A DNA stretch of 23,788 bases from a virus (IMGVR_UViG_3300009609_000065:1-23788); one strand, 5' to 3'; numbered from the stretch's first letter, positions 2,954-10,017 are shown. Notes: generated by a model not told the origin, from the sequence alone. Numbers and translations: made by a program.

Positions 2954-3015
2954 GTAAGTCAATATTAACAGTGGTTGTTAGGCTGACCTAACTGGACGTG
3001 TTAAGCCAGCCTAAC
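2954..3015. repeat. array 1: three 16-bp palindromic sites, 23-bp period
   Basis: The sites start at 2954 (gtaagtcaatattaac, weak), 2977 (gttaggctgacctaac) and 3000 (gttaagccagcctaac). The starts are exactly 23 bp apart. They match the perfect palindrome GTTAGGCTAGCCTAAC found at 6164. The weak site contains, on the minus strand, TTGACT (2957-2962), which could be the -35 element of the leftward operon starting at 2890. No good -10 is seen 16-18 bp further on. The array is read as an operator set between the winged-helix gene and the operon. Confidence 0.75.
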
Positions 3016-3026
3016 ACCCTCCTATT

Positions 3027-3560
3027 CTATTCCAGAATGTGTGTCTTGATAATATCGATTATGGTGTTGTGTATACGTTGTACATTTGGTGTGCTGTACT
3101 CACCTTCGATATCGGGAAGATCTATGTCTTTCTGTAAGCAGTAAATAGTCAACAATGGAACAACGAACTCGGTAATAAGTGTGTCTGGAAGATTGGGATA
3201 TGTTTTCGCGACGTCCGCTTGCTTCCTCATGGCAAAGAAGTATTCACTTGTTTTTAGTAACCTTGTAGGTACTATAAGAATGTTCTCCTTTACTACGTCA
3301 GTCGTCAGGATGACAGGCTTATCACTCTTAAGTAGTTCTTCTCCCTTTTCTGTTATGTTGTAGTAACCTCTATAAACTTTGATGTAGCCAGCTACACGAA
3401 GTGGTTTTAATAGCTTTCTAGTATAATCTATGCTTGAGTCAACCTTCTCAGCTATAAGCTTAGCATTGTGTCCTTCTACCTTGGTTCCTTGTTCTTCTGC
3501 TTGTTTCTTCTCCAATAAGGCTCGAAGTATGTTTTTAGTAGTGTCCTTGTCGTAGGCCAT
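3027..3560 (-). CDS. winged helix-turn-helix transcriptional regulator
   Basis: A 177-residue DNA-binding protein. Residues about 33-78 have the winged-helix layout: a helix with AKLIAEKV, a recognition helix around SSIDYTRKLLKPL, then RVAGYIKVYRGYYNIT as the beta wing, followed by TEKGEELL, the usual closing helix of MarR/PadR-like domains. The C-terminal half is helical and may mediate dimerisation. The frame is open to an ATG at 3569. I chose the ATG at 3560 because a TTGACA / CATATG promoter ends six bases before it, giving a leaderless start, and GGAGG is only two bases away, too close to act as a ribosome binding site. It is the only clear DNA-binding regulator in the window and lies next to array 1, so it is the best candidate to bind the 16-bp palindromes. 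That link is inference. Confidence 0.8.
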   Translation of the reverse strand: MAYDKDTTKNILRALLEKKQAEEQGTKVEGHNAKLIAEKVDSSIDYTRKLLKPLRVAGYIKVYRGYYNITEKGEELLKSDKPVILTTDVVKENILIVPTRLLKTSEYFFAMRKQADVAKTYPNLPDTLITEFVVPLLTIYCLQKDIDLPDIEGEYSTPNVQRIHNTIIDIIKTHILE

Positions 3561-3566
3561 ACCCTC

Positions 3567-3596
3567 CATATGCTAGTAAAAAGTTGTGCTTGTCAA
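3567..3596 (-). promoter_or_regulatory. putative leaderless promoter for the winged-helix gene
   Basis: On the minus strand TTGACA (3591-3596) is followed after 18 bp by CATATG (3567-3572) as a weak -10. Six further bases lead to the ATG at 3560. The -35 is perfect and the -10 poor. The spacing to the start codon equals that of the promoters at 5917-5945 and 6274-6302. Confidence 0.45.
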
Positions 3597-3618
3597 GCCA
3601 TTTGGACAGGCGGCGTCC

Positions 3619-3627
3619 TGTGGATAA
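3619..3627 (-). other. single perfect DnaA-box 9-mer
   Basis: TTATCCACA on the minus strand is the consensus host DnaA box. It is the only perfect copy noticed, and one such 9-mer can occur by chance in a window this size, so an origin is only a possibility. Confidence 0.25.
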
Positions 3628-3919
3628 GTCGATAGCTGGCTAGTGCAATGGATTCTATTCAGTATTTAATATGGAAACCGTTTGATTCCTGTACCGGGGG
3701 CAGGGTTGCTGGTCTTGCTCAGAGAAACTTTTAATTTGGACGCTCTATTCAGGTTTCAGAGCTAACGAAACGGGTTCGCTATGTGTCCAATCGAACAGGT
3801 GTTCCTAGTTGAGAGGTGTCTACTTTCTGAGCTTCCTGCATCGTACCTGGTCACAGCGTTGCACAAGGGTAGGCTTGTTAGATAGCTGCTATGTGTAAAA
3901 GGTTTTTTTAAATTAGATG

Positions 3920-3964
3920 CTCTCTACACTCTTTGTACGAAGTACAAGGAGAGAGTGTAGAGAG
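3920..3964. other. long hairpin, 13 + 6 bp stem
   Basis: Bases 3920-3932 (ctctctacactct) are perfectly complementary to 3952-3964. Inside, 3933-3938 (ttgtac) pairs with 3942-3947 around a three-base loop, leaving a four-base bulge at 3948-3951. Outside, ATG/CAT flanks (3917-3919, 3969-3971) could extend it past a further bulge. Neither strand shows a clear T-run directly after the stem, so this is not a standard intrinsic terminator. Nineteen paired bases make it the strongest local hairpin in the window. Confidence 0.6.
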
Positions 3965-4125
3965 TGAGCATGAGTTGCTATCAAGAATGACATACCCCTG
4001 TAGGTGTCCAAGTGGGCATAGCTAGCCATACGAGCTTTCAGCAAACCGATAGGTGACTATATTAGCAATAAAGTTACATTTATTGGAAAAATATAGGCAT
4101 ATAGAATGTCTCCAGATCAATCTAA

Positions 4126-4147
4126 GCGAGTAGGTACAAATTGCGAC
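4126..4147 (+). repeat. 22-bp repeat, copy 1
   Basis: gcgagtaggta, three variable bases, then attgcgac. It agrees with 4845-4866 at 19 of 22 positions. Both copies lie downstream of the stop codons of the two paralogous leftward genes (4256-4573 and 5018-5383). Confidence 0.6.
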
Positions 4148-4171
4148 GCGAGTGAGCGAGCGAACGACAAA

Positions 4172-4206
4172 TAGCCCCGACCAGGGTAATCCCCCGATCG
4201 AGGCTA
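4172..4206 (-). terminator. putative terminator hairpin after gene 4256-4573
   Basis: In the leftward RNA 4206-4198 (UAGCCUCGA) pairs with 4180-4172 (UCGGGGCUA): nine pairs, one of them G-U. It is followed by UUUGUCGUU. The G-U pair favours the leftward strand. The loop is long and itself holds GGG/CCC. The T-run is short, so confidence is moderate. Confidence 0.45.
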
Positions 4207-4219
4207 AATGCCGCACTAT

Positions 4220-4250
4220 CAATTAAAGATTGAACGAAGTCCCTGCCACT
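4220..4250. repeat. 31-bp inverted repeat, 3'-UTR arm
   Basis: This segment is an imperfect inverted copy of 4617-4647 (26 of 31 identical after reverse complementing). It begins five bases past the stop codon of gene 4256-4573 in the direction of transcription. In the leftward RNA, three of the five mismatches become G-U pairs. Confidence 0.7.
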
Positions 4251-4255
4251 AATGA

Positions 4256-4573
4256 TTACTTGCTAAGGCGCTCGGCAAGCAATTCGGCAGCGGTCTTAAC
4301 CTTAGCCTTACGGCCTGGCTTATCGCCGTCACTCTTTGTCCTGATTGATTCAACCTTGACATTGACTTTGCCAGTCTCATGACCCTGCCAAACCTGCTTA
4401 TCGAATGTCTCCCGACAAAGATTCGCAGCCTTGACATAAGCCTCAAGCTTATTGCGGAAATTGACTTGATCGTTCAATTCCCAGTTAAGCCAATCTTCCC
4501 CCATAATTGGAGGAAACATTTCCGCAAAGTTTGCGGTCATTCCAGCAGTCAGCATTTCATTGTTCTCAGCCAT
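4256..4573 (-). CDS. small protein, paralogue of gene 5018-5383
   Basis: The family is not recognised by name. The 105 residues align with the product of 5018-5383 over most of their length. Shared features are W..LE.DDQV.FR..L (here NDQVNFR), the AN..RE.FDK.VW core, a GHE.G turn and a C-terminal DG.KPGRK basic patch, which looks AT-hook-like and could touch DNA. The frame is open to 4672, but that extension would cover the promoter and the inverted-repeat arm, so I start at the ATG at 4573 behind GATTGGAAATGTA. The gene has its own promoter (4663-4691) next to array 2. Its transcript ends are complementary to each other (4220-4250 and 4617-4647). A duplicated early gene with an unknown role. 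Confidence 0.8.
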   Translation of the reverse strand: MAENNEMLTAGMTANFAEMFPPIMGEDWLNWELNDQVNFRNKLEAYVKAANLCRETFDKQVWQGHETGKVNVKVESIRTKSDGDKPGRKAKVKTAAELLAERLSK

Positions 4574-4616
4574 TACATTTCCAATCTTTATAAATACGTT
4601 TGAATTTGGGCAATGC

Positions 4617-4647
4617 AGTGGCAGGGACTCCGCTCGTTCTTCAATTG
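4617..4647. repeat. 31-bp inverted repeat, 5'-leader arm
   Basis: This is the inverted partner of 4220-4250. It lies in the untranslated leader of gene 4256-4573, just downstream of the transcription start expected from the promoter at 4663-4691. The strongest block is AGTGGCAGGGACT (4617-4629), fully complementary between the arms. Confidence 0.7.
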
Positions 4648-4662
4648 TCAAGGTACCCCACG

Positions 4663-4691
4663 ATCGTCTCATGGATCGCCGAAATTGTCAA
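4663..4691 (-). promoter_or_regulatory. promoter for gene 4256-4573
   Basis: On the minus strand TTGACA (4686-4691) is followed after exactly 17 bp by GACGAT (4663-4668). The start of transcription would be near 4656, giving a leader of about 80 bases that contains the inverted-repeat arm. The nearest array-2 site starts at 4709, 17 bases upstream of the -35. Confidence 0.55.
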
Positions 4692-4708
4692 TAGGAATTT
4701 AGTACCAA

Positions 4709-4839
4709 ATAAAGCTAGCTTAACACCCCAAATTGGCCCAACCGAATACAATATATAAAGCAAGCTTAACACTCTAAATTGGCGCGGCCGAACACAAAAA
4801 ATAAGGCTCACTTAACATATACTGTTAAGCAAGCCTAAC
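4709..4839. repeat. array 2: six 16-bp sites, 23-bp period, in 46-bp units
   Basis: Sites start at 4709, 4732, 4755, 4778, 4801 and 4824, each exactly 23 bp after the last. Sites 1, 3 and 5 read ataa(a/g)gc...cttaac, and site 6 is gttaagcaagcctaac. Sites 2 and 4 are a different class (attggcccaaccgaat, attggcgcggccgaac) that keeps the inverted symmetry, so the array looks like a duplicated 46-bp unit. It lies directly upstream of the promoter of gene 4256-4573. TATACT fills the spacer at 4818-4823 and could be a rightward -10, but nothing lies in place for it to serve. Confidence 0.75.
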
Positions 4840-4844
4840 ACGGC

Positions 4845-4866
4845 GCGAGTAGGTATGGATTGCGAC
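4845..4866 (+). repeat. 22-bp repeat, copy 2
   Basis: Matches 4126-4147 at 19 of 22 positions (gcgagtaggta...attgcgac). It lies downstream of the stop of the paralogous gene 5018-5383 and directly beside the last site of array 2. Confidence 0.6.
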
Positions 4867-4905
4867 CATGCGAAGCATGAGCATCAGATATTTGGCCGAG
4901 TAGGG

Positions 4906-4952
4906 TTCCTCGGAACCCCCCCAACCCTTTCGGGTCAAGAGATTCCGAGGAA
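4906..4952 (-). other. structured 3' region of gene 5018-5383
   Basis: Bases 4906-4915 (ttcctcggaa) and 4943-4952 (ttccgaggaa) are perfect ten-base complements. Inside, the minus strand holds ACCC-GAAA-GGGT (4924-4935), a small stem with a GNRA-type tetraloop, next to a run of seven G. This compact nested fold could be an RNA element or a second terminator. Which strand matters is inferred from the leftward gene upstream. Confidence 0.45.
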
Positions 4953-4976
4953 ATACGCTGCCCAATCGGCGAGCCA

Positions 4977-5008
4977 GGCGGCTGGAATCATTGCTAATCC
5001 CAGCCGCC
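4977..5008 (-). terminator. hairpin just past the stop of gene 5018-5383
   Basis: ggcggctgg (4977-4985) pairs with ccagccgcc (5000-5008), nine perfect GC-rich pairs around a 14-base loop. The stem begins nine bases after the TGA of gene 5018-5383. No T-run follows, so it may act with the structure at 4906-4952 or protect the RNA end. Confidence 0.5.
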
Positions 5009-5017
5009 CGACAAACC

Positions 5018-5383
5018 TCACTTCATCGACTCCGCAATGATCTGAGCCATCGTCTTTTCGACGGCCTTACGTCCCGGCTTTTCACCGTCGGGACGAACTC
5101 GAACACTTTTGATGACGTCGGGAGAAACCGTGCCATCCTCGTGCCCCTTCCACACTGCCTTGTCGAAGACTTCCCGAGCCTTGTTGGCAACAGCCACGAA
5201 AGCCGAGAGTCGAGTGCGGAAATCAACCTGATCGTCGATTTCCAGCTTCTTCCATCCCTCACTGAGCGTGAGAGTCAGAAAGTACTCCACGATGGGATGC
5301 GCCAACATCTCAGAACTGGCCTGGTCTTTGGTGAGAGGAATGCGATCCTCAACAACCTGCGTCTCAACAGTCTGTTCGTCCAT
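5018..5383 (-). CDS. small protein, paralogue of gene 4256-4573
   Basis: A 121-residue relative of the 4256-4573 product. Shared features in order are LE(I/L)(D/N)DQV.FR near residues 50-60, AN.AREVFDKAVWKGHE.G, then SVR..PDGEKPGRKA near the C-terminus with the same basic patch. The N-terminus is longer and acidic. Two ATGs, at 5389 and 5383, follow GGAAAGGAA. I prefer 5383 because the purine run is too close to 5389. The leader carries two hairpins (5399-5448) and the stop is followed by another. No separate strong promoter is visible, so it may be read from the promoter at 5917-5945. Function unknown. Confidence 0.8.
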   Translation of the reverse strand: MDEQTVETQVVEDRIPLTKDQASSEMLAHPIVEYFLTLTLSEGWKKLEIDDQVDFRTRLSAFVAVANKAREVFDKAVWKGHEDGTVSPDVIKSVRVRPDGEKPGRKAVEKTMAQIIAESMK

Positions 5384-5398
5384 TTCCATTTCCTTTCC

Positions 5399-5448
5399 AG
5401 TCTCTCGTTTGTTCGAGACTAGACGAAACCTCTCGTCGCACCGAGAGG
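5399..5448 (-). other. two hairpins in the leader of gene 5018-5383
   Basis: cctctc (5429-5434) pairs with gagagg (5443-5448), and agtctc (5399-5404) pairs with gagact (5415-5420). In the leftward RNA they stand one after the other between the stop of gene 5466-5657 and the start of gene 5018-5383. They could act as RNA-processing, attenuation or stability elements. Confidence 0.4.
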
Positions 5449-5465
5449 AATCGTCCAGCATCGAC

Positions 5466-5657
5466 TCAGTAGTCACGCTCGTCAAGATGGGAAATGACCT
5501 TCTTCCAAAGACGAAGCTCCTTCAAAGCCTTGTTGTGCTCGTCCACCAAACGGTTGACGATCCGACGAGCATCGACGTTCAGATTGCCGCCGACATTCTG
5601 AGCGTCAGAAAGCTCACGCTCCAATTCGTAGCTGCTCCACGTTTCCATTTCTACCAT
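5466..5657 (-). CDS. small hypothetical protein, about 63 aa
   Basis: The family is not recognised. It is charged and helical (SYELERELSDAQNVGGN, then LVDEHNKALKELRLWKKV), possibly a coiled coil. The open frame runs further up to 5726, but that part overlaps the upstream gene and a strong hairpin, so it is unlikely. AAGGAGAG lies right before the ATG at 5657, only two bases from it. The in-frame ATG at 5648 is eleven bases from the same site. Either could be the start, giving 63 or 60 residues. It is one of four single small genes separated by hairpins in the leftward arm. Confidence 0.68.
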   Translation of the reverse strand: MVEMETWSSYELERELSDAQNVGGNLNVDARRIVNRLVDEHNKALKELRLWKKVISHLDERDY

Positions 5658-5689
5658 CTCTCCTTGTTGTGTTTGAAAGTAGAGAGAGC

Positions 5690-5709
5690 GGCAGGGGTTT
5701 CCCCCTGCC
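5690..5709 (-). terminator. perfect hairpin with GAAA tetraloop after gene 5716-5910
   Basis: On the minus strand GGCAGGGG-GAAA-CCCCTGCC gives eight perfect pairs around a GNRA tetraloop, starting six bases after the TGA of gene 5716-5910. Outer GAGAG/CTCTC could extend the stem. A CTCTCTCTACTTTC tract follows. It is probably a partial terminator or processing stem, since genes further left seem to depend on the same promoter. Confidence 0.6.
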
Positions 5710-5715
5710 AAACTC

Positions 5716-5910
5716 TCAGCCTTCAAACCCGCAGTACTTCATGTAGCGGATGAGAGCGAGGCGGGGGGAGTTGCCCGCTTCGAAGGCATCCCACCAATCC
5801 CAATCCTCGCCGTCGTCACTCACCATTCCAAACTCTGCCTCCATTTCCTTGTCTACCTGAAGCAGCCAGAAACCGAACCGCTTGTTGATGTCTTCGTAGT
5901 TCTTTGGCAC
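5716..5910 (-). CDS. small acidic hypothetical protein, 64 aa, leaderless GTG start
   Basis: The family is not recognised. The protein is acidic and Trp-rich (DDGEDWDWWDAFEAG), followed by a more basic C-terminal helix (LALIRYMKYCGFEG). No ribosome binding site precedes the GTG at 5910. Instead a good promoter (TTGACT, 17 bp, CATACT) ends six bases before it, so the mRNA should begin at the start codon. Internal ATGs exist, but the leaderless reading explains the sequence best. It is the first gene of the leftward arm and faces array 3. Confidence 0.72.
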   Translation of the reverse strand: MPKNYEDINKRFGFWLLQVDKEMEAEFGMVSDDGEDWDWWDAFEAGNSPRLALIRYMKYCGFEG

Positions 5911-5916
5911 AAGACG

Positions 5917-5945
5917 AGTATGCGCCTATCGGCGGAGAGAGTCAA
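5917..5945 (-). promoter_or_regulatory. leaderless leftward promoter at array 3
   Basis: On the minus strand TTGACT (5940-5945) is followed after 17 bp by CATACT (5917-5922). Six bases later is the GTG start at 5910. The geometry matches a housekeeping sigma promoter whose first transcribed base is the start codon. Array 3 begins 11 bases upstream of the -35. Confidence 0.65.
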
Positions 5946-5956
5946 TAGATCTGAGA

Positions 5957-6179
5957 AGAATACGTACCTAATCTTTTATGTAAGGTCAGCCTTACATCTC
6001 GGTATCATTACACCTAACATCTACTGTTCGTTACACTTAATGCGCGGTGTAAGGTACGCCTAACATAGAGCACTGCTCTCGACCAACACAAGATGTAAGG
6101 CTAGCTTTACAAATGATGTACACCCTACCTTACAAATTTGAATAACCGATCCTACCTCCCGGTGTTAGGCTAGCCTAAC
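5957..6179. repeat. array 3: ten 16-bp sites at an exact 23-bp period
   Basis: Sites start at 5957, 5980, 6003, 6026, 6049, 6072, 6095, 6118, 6141 and 6164. The best are 6164 (gttaggctagcctaac, a perfect palindrome), 6049 (gtaaggtacgcctaac), 6095 (gtaaggctagctttac) and 5980 (gtaaggtcagccttac). Others, such as 6003 (tatcattacacctaac), keep mainly the right half. Sites 6072 and 6141 are the weakest. Spacers are always seven bases and vary in sequence, so the period is kept while the spacers drift. The array fills the region between the divergent leftward and rightward units and is read as a cooperative protein-binding array. Confidence 0.85.
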
Positions 6180-6273: not shown

Positions 6274-6302
6274 TTGACATGGGTTCCCATAAATGGTATG
6301 GT
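6274..6302 (+). promoter_or_regulatory. leaderless promoter of the rightward arm
   Basis: TTGACA (6274-6279) is followed after exactly 17 bp by TATGGT (6297-6302). Six bases later is the ATG at 6309. This is the same geometry as the leftward promoter at 5917-5945. An ATG at 6279 would sit inside the -35, which argues against that earlier start. Confidence 0.6.
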
Positions 6303-6308
6303 ACCATA

Positions 6309-7412
6309 ATGCGAGACATTTCCAAGATGGTCTCAGATTCTCAGGAATTTATCCAGACAGTCAAAAAGTTCCAGGAGAAAGAAGCAGAGTTAAAGAAGGA
6401 CTTCACAGATAAACTACATGAAGCTAGAGAGAAGGAGCAAGAAGAAGATGCAGAAGGAGAAGGTTTAAATGCACCCAGTAGTATACGTAGTGATCGGAGT
6501 GGTCCTTTTGGCAGTTTTAATCCTGCTCTTCCGGACCGTGTAGAAGATAAGAACAAAGTAGAACCCGTATTTACAGAACCTAAATTCACAAAACGGAAGG
6601 GTAAGAAGTTTCACGGACCACCTAGCCCTGTAGGTGAAAAAGCTTTCCCGGAAACGAAATTCACACCCTTTTCCAGATTTGGTTCTGATAGAGATATTGA
6701 CACGTTTCGTGCTGACTTGCTGACTTTTATTGAGACTTTCTATTACATTCAGAAGCGTCTACCATTCGTCCAGGAACTGGACAAGAAATTCCAAACCCAT
6801 AGTTCCCGTCCTAAAGACATTTCCAAATGGACAGAAATAGTAGAAGGTATAGGAGAAAGTCTCTCCAATCGTGGTATTCCTCCTTACGAGGTAAAGGGCA
6901 AAGATTACATCGACCCGAAGTTTGCTTGGGCCGTGACCCTGGTGGTCAATATCAACGACAAGAGAACTCTTCCAGCCAAACTGAAAGAAGCGGGGATTAC
7001 CACCAAAGAGTGGACCGCCTTGCTGCGAAAGAAATCACATCACGATTACTATTCGATGCGTATAGAGCAAGTGTTCTCGGAAGACATTCAAAACGACGCT
7101 AAACTGGCTATCGCCAAATCGATTCAAAACGGTGACCTCAACGCTATTAAGTATTACAACGAATGGCAGAACGTGTACAGGCCCGAAAAGGGAATTCACA
7201 TTAATAACGCTCCTGAGAATACAACGTATGTCTCTGAGCCAATGTCCCAACAAATGATTACTACTGTCCTTTCGGCCATTATGGAAATCCTTGCTACCTA
7301 CGTGAGTAGTGAAGTCCTTCTTGCTATTGCCACAGAGATTCGTAAGAACGAAACTGTAAGAAAAGCTATTGAAGTACGCAGTAGCGAGCCTGCAAGCAAT
7401 ACTTTACTCTAG
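6309..7412 (+). CDS. terminase small subunit
   Basis: Probable DNA-recognition subunit of the packaging motor, 367 residues. The N-terminal third is charged and coiled (KKFQEKEAELKKDFTDKL). The central part around RTLPAKLKEAGITTKEWTALLRK has a helix-turn-helix look, followed by DAKLAIAKSIQNGDLNAIKYYNEW, a pattern typical of small terminases of the phBC6A51 type. The C-terminus is a long helix-rich oligomerisation region. The large terminase follows within about 1.1 kb. I chose the ATG at 6309 because the promoter at 6274-6302 ends six bases before it and no ribosome binding site supports the ATG at 6279. The identification rests on pattern and context. Confidence 0.72.
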   Translation: MRDISKMVSDSQEFIQTVKKFQEKEAELKKDFTDKLHEAREKEQEEDAEGEGLNAPSSIRSDRSGPFGSFNPALPDRVEDKNKVEPVFTEPKFTKRKGKKFHGPPSPVGEKAFPETKFTPFSRFGSDRDIDTFRADLLTFIETFYYIQKRLPFVQELDKKFQTHSSRPKDISKWTEIVEGIGESLSNRGIPPYEVKGKDYIDPKFAWAVTLVVNINDKRTLPAKLKEAGITTKEWTALLRKKSHHDYYSMRIEQVFSEDIQNDAKLAIAKSIQNGDLNAIKYYNEWQNVYRPEKGIHINNAPENTTYVSEPMSQQMITTVLSAIMEILATYVSSEVLLAIATEIRKNETVRKAIEVRSSEPASNTLL

Positions 7413-8374: not shown

Positions 8375-8516
8375 GAAAACTGCAATCCCATATATCGGGG
8401 CGGTAACAGTTCTTTCTTGTCTGATCGCTGTCTATCTTGCTAACGAGCACGACAAAGTAGAGCGGCTCGAAGAACTTATTCAGGTACTCTTGGAATTCTT
8501 CTACGATGCCTCGTAA
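8364..8516 (+). CDS. small single-pass membrane protein, 50 aa
   Basis: The start ATG at 8364 lies in the end of the holin gene behind AAGGAATCAG. Residues about 7-26 (AIPYIGAVTVLSCLIAVYLA) form one membrane segment, followed by a short charged helix (HDKVERLEELIQVLLEFF). The layout suits a holin partner, antiholin or small spanin-like lysis accessory. The stop overlaps the large terminase start by eleven bases. The homologous family is not recognised. The coupled position between holin and terminase supports a real gene. Confidence 0.68.
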   Translation: MKLEKTAIPYIGAVTVLSCLIAVYLANEHDKVERLEELIQVLLEFFYDAS

Positions 8517-10017
8517 AGAAAAAGAACTAACCTTTGACGACATACTTCTCATCACAGAGCAGAAGCTACGTGAAACAAGTATCTCCCCCGGTCTTGTCGC
8601 ATATAAGCCGCACATCTCACAAGAAAAGTGCCATAGATCTACGGCTAAAGAAAAACTATATATCGGCGGCAACCGTTCAGGTAAGACGGTATTTGGTGGC
8701 TCCGAAGCGGTCATGTGGCTAACTGGTGAGCATAAGTACCGTAAAGATCTACCAATTCCTCCTGTACGTGGGAGAGTTGTTGCAATCGATATTGAAGATG
8801 GAATTAAGAAGATCGCTATTCCAGAAATTCAACGGTGGATGCCTTCTCGTTTTCTAAAGAATGGTTCGTGGGAAGAAAGTTACGATAAGGCAAGTAAGAC
8901 TCTCAATTTGACAAATGGTTCGTTTTTGGAATTCATGTCTTACGAACAGGACGTGGAGAAGTTTGCGGGAACCAGTCGCCATTTTGTCTGGTTCGATGAA
9001 GAACCACCCGAAGACATTTACAATGAGTGTCTGATGCGTTTGGTTGACACGGACGGTTCGTACTGGATTTCAATGACGCCGCTTGTTGAGATGACCTGGG
9101 TAAAGGACAGAATTTATGACCCGTGGATCGAGGGTGACAAAGGTATTTTCGTTCTTGAAATCAACACTGAAGAAAACCCTCATATCAAGATTGAAGCACT
9201 TGATCGTATTACTCGTGGACTCTCCAGTGAAGAACGTGAAGCTCGGCGAACTGGTAAATTCATTACACACACCGGACTCGTATACGCAGGCAGTTTCGTT
9301 AACAAAAGTGTTGAGGAGGGAGGAAATGTATGTGACGACATCTTGGAAGACTTCGACGAATACAGAAACCAATGGGGCCATTTTGTTTGTATGGACCACG
9401 GTTATGCTAACCCAACCGCCTTTCTATTCTGTTGTTATGATGCCGACGGGCGGATCATTGTCTATGATGAAATCTACGAAACAAAGCGAATCGTCCGTGA
9501 AAACGCTGAAATATACAAACGTCACGTAGAAGAACTCCGTGTCCATCCTACTTACATTGTGGGCGATCCCAGTATCCAGAATACTTCTGCCATTACTCGT
9601 ACTTCTATCCAAACTGAGTACGTGGAGAATGGATTGCCGATCGCACTCGGAAACAACGACGTAAGAGGTGGAATCGCACGAGTCCAAAACCGCTTCGATC
9701 AGAAGCTACTGTTCATTACTCGTCGGTGTACGTACACTCTAAAAGAAATTGGAAACTATCGGTGGGATCGATTCGCTTCGAGCAAGATTGAAGCTCGGCG
9801 TAACAAGAAAGAAGTTCCACTGAAAAAGAATGACCACTGCCTCGATGCGCTAAGATACGGAGTAATGTCCCGTCCGGCGCTAAGTGATGAAGTTGACGCC
9901 CCTGTAGGAAATGTGCTTAACTTGCCAGAGGCAGGCGAGAAGGACTTTGACTACGAATTAGTCTTTTCGTCTAGACGCCAACGACTCGTTGACGAAGTAT
10001 TAGGGAGTGAATGGTAA
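8506..10017 (+). CDS. terL: terminase large subunit (packaging ATPase and nuclease)
   Basis: Motor that cuts concatemeric phage DNA and pumps it into the prohead through the portal. The 503 residues carry the ATPase Walker A GGNRSGKT (54-61), Walker B FVWFDEE (160-166) and coupling motif SMTP (189-192). The RNase H-like nuclease follows with acidic residues at Asp297 (CMDHGYANP), Asp354 (IVGDPSIQ) and Asp443/Asp447 (NDHCLDALRYG). The length is normal for the family. GGAA lies ten bases before the ATG. It follows the lysis genes and precedes the Acb2-like gene, with the portal 1.3 kb downstream. Confidence 0.95.
   Translation: MPRKEKELTFDDILLITEQKLRETSISPGLVAYKPHISQEKCHRSTAKEKLYIGGNRSGKTVFGGSEAVMWLTGEHKYRKDLPIPPVRGRVVAIDIEDGIKKIAIPEIQRWMPSRFLKNGSWEESYDKASKTLNLTNGSFLEFMSYEQDVEKFAGTSRHFVWFDEEPPEDIYNECLMRLVDTDGSYWISMTPLVEMTWVKDRIYDPWIEGDKGIFVLEINTEENPHIKIEALDRITRGLSSEEREARRTGKFITHTGLVYAGSFVNKSVEEGGNVCDDILEDFDEYRNQWGHFVCMDHGYANPTAFLFCCYDADGRIIVYDEIYETKRIVRENAEIYKRHVEELRVHPTYIVGDPSIQNTSAITRTSIQTEYVENGLPIALGNNDVRGGIARVQNRFDQKLLFITRRCTYTLKEIGNYRWDRFASSKIEARRNKKEVPLKKNDHCLDALRYGVMSRPALSDEVDAPVGNVLNLPEAGEKDFDYELVFSSRRQRLVDEVLGSEW

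Follow-up and report, generated by a model that had tools for sequence, protein, structure and literature searches.

Phased arrays of one-dimer iron-box-like palindromes in a viral genome fragment and their probable recognition by a host metalloregulator

Iron boxes and tandem operators

In phage lambda, the OR and OL operators consist of tandem palindromes about 23-24 bp apart, which are occupied by cooperative dimers, and in corynephages the tox operator is under the control of the host DtxR. DtxR targets were also reported in the C. glutamicum prophages CGP3 and CGP4, and are described as eavesdropping on host stress (PMC12327846). Structural work on IdeR led to the proposal of the 14-bp core TTAGG-N4-CCTAA as the redefined IdeR/DtxR target consensus, in which the second C may be T; TTAGGNNNNCCTAA is bound by one IdeR dimer with a KD of about 78 nM, and this one-dimer form is itself accepted as an IdeR target (PMC8464063). 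According to a further study, IdeR represses from single boxes that cover the promoter and activates from several upstream boxes, activation of bfrB involves the displacement of Lsr2, and the function of one-dimer sites is stated as unknown (PMC10317159). IdeR is described as the only investigated counter-silencer of Lsr2 (PMC7002338). SloR, a further member of the DtxR family, binds cooperatively to 18-bp palindromes that lie 4 bp apart, corresponding to a 22-bp step (PMC12096823).

The DNA analyzed here (the window) is a stretch of 23,788 nucleotides from a virus (IMGVR_UViG_3300009609_000065:1-23788), and its intergenic regions carry three arrays of 16-bp palindromes. These share tandem arrangement and near-equal spacing with lambda OR/OL, which differ in their phage-encoded repressor, unrelated motif and three sites per operator. 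The half-sites, 4-bp inner gap, C/T tolerance and occurrence before actinobacterial iron genes are common to the array motif and the DtxR/IdeR box TTAGGNNNNCCTAA (PMC8464063); in contrast, chromosomal boxes are single or overlapping, whereas in phages up to ten one-dimer boxes follow one another at a fixed 23-bp step. The four IdeR boxes of mycobacterial bfrB, a case of Lsr2 counter-silencing, are likewise situated upstream of a promoter, but they serve a host ferritin gene and the accessible portions of the two sources describe no locked 23-bp step (PMC10317159, PMC7002338). In the tox operator and the CGP3/CGP4 targets a host iron regulator reads phage-borne operators, although these are single targets in integrated prophages, and multi-site phased arrays are not described in the accessible part of the source (PMC12327846). 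The SloR elements of Streptococcus mutans mntH are also adjacent palindromes, 22 bp apart, cooperatively bound and with a TTAAG....CTTAA-like core, but they number two to three and control a host Mn transporter (PMC12096823). The statement of an earlier, sequence-only reading of this DNA that no comparable operator design is known was too strong, given the similarity of lambda OR/OL and of the SloR sites at 22 bp. Our literature search found neither phased one-dimer iron-box arrays nor their recurrence across actinophages, and no match for phages that act as decoys for the regulators of their hosts. That a host DtxR controls phage genes is already known, while the long phased one-dimer arrays appear to be new.

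Three phased arrays and their conservation

The array features of the window are as follows.

2954..2969, no strand: array 1, weak position on the 23-bp grid (GTAAGTCAATATTAAC), under the matrix threshold
2977..3015, no strand: array 1, strong sites of one-dimer iron-box-like form at 2977 and 3000, 23 bp apart
4709..4839, no strand: array 2, strong sites at 4709, 4755, 4801 and 4824, weak positions at 4732 and 4778
5957..6179, no strand: array 3, strong sites at 5980, 6049, 6095 and 6164 (gaps of 69, 46 and 69 bp) plus weak grid positions

The three phased arrays are real. All nineteen 16-bp starts listed in the sequence-only reading were found in the sequence by direct check. A matrix trained, against circularity, on 39 sites exclusively from contigs of other phage groups recovered exactly the ten strong sites in the three intergenic arrays, together with two weak intragenic matches (9401 and 13024). 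All 13 within-array pairs among the ten strong sites are separated by multiples of 23 bp, while not a single in-phase pair arose when the three intergenic regions were shuffled 300 times with their dinucleotide composition preserved. The claim of an exact 23-bp period was borne out, as were the expectations that a matrix scan would find phased rather than scattered intragenic hits and that shuffled intergenic sequence would lack phased chains.

The remaining nine grid positions are weak and consist mostly of right half-sites (e.g., CACCTAAC and CACTTAAT). Their summed half-site matches amount to 68 in phase, versus 17-50 at the other 22 offsets, although position 6072 is indistinguishable from background by half-site matching. 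The previously claimed nineteen sites are better described as ten strong sites and about eight in-phase half-sites, and the proposal that degenerate sites hold the phase is valid for the set rather than for position 6072. Both half-sites of the one-dimer consensus are intact at 2977, 3000, 4824 and 6164; each of the other six strong sites departs from it at one or more positions, mostly by a T-to-A exchange within a half, and in several sites of arrays 2 and 3 the left half reads GTAAG or ATAAAG and scores much lower.

Array 1 is located upstream of a leftward gene starting near 2890, directly past the stop of a winged-helix gene, array 2 upstream of the leftward gene 4256-4672, and array 3 between candidate divergent promoters. 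The small leftward genes 4256-4672 and 5018-5485, which flank array 2, are paralogous and share a C-terminal KPGRK patch; neither has a Pfam or PHROG match. A 31-nt inverted repeat (84%; 4220-4250 and 4617-4647) flanks the former gene; it may mark a segment that is invertible or mobile, or its arms may pair over a long range in the RNA. No convincing gene was recognized in the roughly 690 bp of 3570-4255, where a perfect inverted repeat of 13 bp (3920-3964) occurs along with the repeat GCGAGTAGGTA...TTGCGAC, which is also present at 4845-4866.

Relatives of the terminase encoded at 8506-10017 are found in podovirus-like actinophages and IMG/VR contigs, including MW202795 (complete, 42.6 kb; 44% identity) and Arthrobacter phages such as Brad and Jasmine (36%). 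In the nearest relative, contig L008, whose terminase is 92% identical, three arrays occupy equivalent places: the counterparts of array 1 lie at 779 and 802 with place and spacing unchanged, that of array 2 at 2632-2762 with spacing unchanged, and that of array 3 at 3693-3892, where the 69-, 46- and 69-bp gaps are kept. Identity between the window and L008 is 78% in the sites and 71% in the spacers plus weak grid positions, at odds with the earlier notion of freely varying spacers; within the sites the outer half-site bases are conserved and the centre is drifting. More distant relatives (L005, L019, L022 and L024) carry one array, left of the structural genes, mostly spaced at multiples of 23 bp. 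The 23-bp lock is not universal among relatives, a 68-bp gap being present in L005 and a 24-bp step in L032 and L054. Megablast of the array region against phages gave no match.

The motif in chromosomes and other viral contigs

The array motif, TTARG-N4-CYTAA, matches the one-dimer box of DtxR/IdeR-family metalloregulators, an identity that the sequence-only reading, otherwise partly supported, had missed. The C2-to-T variation tolerated by the IdeR box also occurs among the array sites. The 19-bp full box, which accommodates two dimers on opposite faces, is not what the arrays contain: their sites are of the 14-bp one-dimer form, and TTAGGTTAGSCTAACCTAA was absent at the array sites read.

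In the chromosomes of actinobacteria, the presumed host class, TTAGGCNNGCCTAA is rare, with 1-3 copies per site-bearing genome, and 13 of 15 such sites adjoin genes of Fe, Mn or Fe-S metabolism. These encode FTR1 (three cases), siderophore-interacting proteins (SIP, two), solute-binding proteins (three) and, in one case each, Nramp, FecCD, FeoB, SufB (SufBD) and the Sdh cytochrome (Sdh_cyt); most of the 13 sites lie no more than about 50 bp from the start codon. A DtxR-family protein is encoded in all ten site-bearing actinobacterial genomes, and in one of them the sole DtxR-family gene is a canonical IdeR. Fe- and Mn-responsive members of the family are not separable on this basis, since a second DtxR-type gene of Leifsonia adjoins mntH. 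As a host design, 23-bp tandems were not found in actinobacterial chromosomes, where pairs are rare and their spacings scattered. Pairs at FecCD in Micromonospora that matched the N7 spacing turned out to combine a one-dimer box with a full box and were off the 23-bp grid.

Pattern scans of IMG/VR detected identical palindromes at a 23-bp step in further contigs. The longest row, of ten boxes, was seen in a 128-kb phage (L044) with 31 sites in the whole record; six boxes in a row occur in L147 and four in L054. All-against-all protein comparison of the contig stretches yielded several groups with no regulator in common, and the recurrence of motif and 23-bp spacing across them is therefore as expected of a host factor. 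WhiB is present in four array-bearing groups, whereas C. glutamicum was the only one among 14 control genomes to contain it; the hosts of those four groups are therefore taken to be actinobacteria.

Other site classes were also observed. A 22-bp array class with A/T-flanked WTTAGG..CCTAAW boxes occurs in L156 (10336-10592, with five boxes in a row, the maximum of the class), L159 (6900-6957), L185 and L141. LexA-like palindromes, CGAAC-N4-GTTC(G), lie beside iron-box arrays in L044 (7583-12965), L135 (1229-1266), L168 (9187) and L054 (2345), and in L135 two of them extend the row at about 24 bp, an arrangement suggestive of islands in which several host stress regulators have boxes. Variants of a Fur/Zur-like 19-mer, AATGAGAACGATTCTCATT among them, adjoin arrays in L005 (35413-35431), L019 (4298-4316), L024 (2445-2463) and L044 (10285-10303). 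A phage-borne ferredoxin (Fer4_15; L033, 553-846) is encoded near an iron-box-like site pair (388 and 434). The composition-matched control motif AATCC-N4-GGATT, intended to be neutral, itself peaked at 24-bp spacing, so that spacing alone is not diagnostic of IdeR. Pairs of this motif exactly 24 bp apart were present in 14 viral contigs (including L201, L205, L214, L216, L217, L223 and L231) and are perhaps another recurrent tandem phage operator.

Candidate binders and proposed regulation

We consider it likely that the arrays are operators for a host-encoded DtxR/IdeR-family metalloregulator of iron, and possibly manganese, positioned upstream of phage promoters. Because their motif matches the site of a host iron-sensing regulator, the phage probably senses or hijacks cellular iron status. 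The relevant neighbouring features are listed here.

3027..3569, minus strand: winged-helix protein of generic type (wHTH), the binder proposed in the sequence-only reading
5917..5945, minus strand: putative promoter for leftward transcription, TTGACT-17-CATACT, which would make the GTG start at 5910 leaderless
6274..6302, plus strand: candidate rightward promoter, TTGACA-17-TATGGT, 95 bp right of array 3; the ATG at 6309 would be leaderless
6279..7412, plus strand: first rightward gene past array 3, probably starting at ATG 6309 and weakly matching the terminase small subunit

A different, rather unlikely account is that the arrays are operators of lambda type, read by a phage-encoded repressor or activator, such as the 3027-3569 protein or one encoded outside the sequenced DNA, with a motif that converged on or copied the iron box. 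Tandem palindromes 22-24 bp apart are a usual phage layout, also with an unrelated motif, the array sites are intergenic and the wHTH gene abuts array 1. The model of this protein is good in the N-terminal domain (block pLDDT 74-89) and poor in the rest; its fold hits include DtxR, IdeR and MntR chains alongside MarR, CRP and further proteins, all with E of 0.01 or higher, and the predicted fold bears some resemblance to the DtxR DNA-binding domain, as do many wHTH proteins. Sequence searches returned generic wHTH matches only, domain search detected no Fe_dep_repress match, and neither a related-locus search nor tblastn revealed relatives in phages. Moreover, the protein and its L008 ortholog share only 42% identity, despite the 92% identity of the terminases, yet the sites keep their consensus, and the motif recurs in phage groups without a common regulator. 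The earlier assignment of this protein as the binder was consequently not upheld; it is a possible binder, and recognition by a host regulator is the simpler interpretation. The Fe_dep_repress profile (PF01325) gave no match over the cut-off in sets of 11 and 28 phage records, the complete 42.6-kb relative W01 included; the best match in phage records (G337; E 1.2e-5, 22 bits) was below the cut-off. The window and L008 are fragments, and a DtxR-like protein may be encoded in other parts of these two phage genomes.

That the arrays act as a sponge, titrating the host iron regulator so that iron uptake is derepressed in infected cells while phage promoters stay outside their control, seems very improbable. 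At least ten sites per genome, and 31 in the 128-kb phage, would suit such a role, and host iron import is raised in some actinophage infections (PMC10986025), but the phage of that transcriptome, WC1, contained no such array by matrix scan. Titration, moreover, needs no exact phasing, and instead of forming one block the sites are placed in front of genes and promoters. An iteron replication origin or partition centromere, the main alternative of the sequence-only reading, would fit the iteron-like period of about 22-23 bp and the non-coding 690 bp nearby at 3570-4255, but is also very improbable in view of three separate arrays of symmetric sites in promoter regions, a motif that marks iron genes in chromosomes, and no initiator or ParA/ParB-type match among the scanned neighbours.

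Under host-regulator control, each 16-bp site would act as a one-dimer iron box of consensus TTAGG-N4-CCTAA, tolerating C/T and A/G variation, and the 23-bp step would probably correspond to the footprint of one dimer, such that metal-loaded dimers abut and touch. Occupancy of an array would then be cooperative and switch-like with cell iron. IdeR crystals display SH3-domain swaps (PMC8464063), and such swaps might connect neighbouring dimers. The earlier view of multi-site operators upstream of promoters, probably bound cooperatively, is supported, except for the single helical register: 23 bp equal 2.19 turns at 10.5 bp per turn, and neighbouring sites are not on one DNA face because each is rotated by about 69 degrees.

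As to the sign of regulation, we infer that activation or counter-silencing is the first choice over repression, since array 3 lies upstream of both candidate divergent promoters and the L005 array is also 99 bp from a promoter-like sequence (TTGACA-17-CATACT, to its right). The number of promoter-like hits in the region is near chance, and the candidate hexamers are only partly kept in L008. The arrays would most likely raise transcription in iron-replete cells, by excluding Lsr2-like silencers or by helping RNA polymerase, with IdeR at the four boxes of mycobacterial bfrB as the model. No Lsr2 (PF11774) was detected in the phage records; since Lsr2-like proteins are annotated in the Arthrobacter relative, that search may be insensitive. 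Within array 2, a match to TTTAGA-17-TATATT would instead suit repression, which is possible for some leftward genes.

A broader scheme, advanced tentatively and less likely than not, is that several actinophage lineages independently built long, exactly phased one-dimer arrays, on which a filament of host Fe-IdeR would open or close promoters, and that together with the LexA-like and Fur/Zur-like boxes beside some of them these form "eavesdropping islands" gating infection by iron and damage state. If true, this scheme would give one-dimer IdeR sites a function. The phages provide natural one-dimer arrays in several lineages, in which cooperativity, Lsr2 counter-silencing and iron-gated infection are directly testable. 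If the host-regulator reading is right, phage expression in actinobacteria, uncultured hosts included, would be tied to cell iron via the host regulator, and the arrays could serve as a sequence signature of phages that sense the metal state of their hosts.
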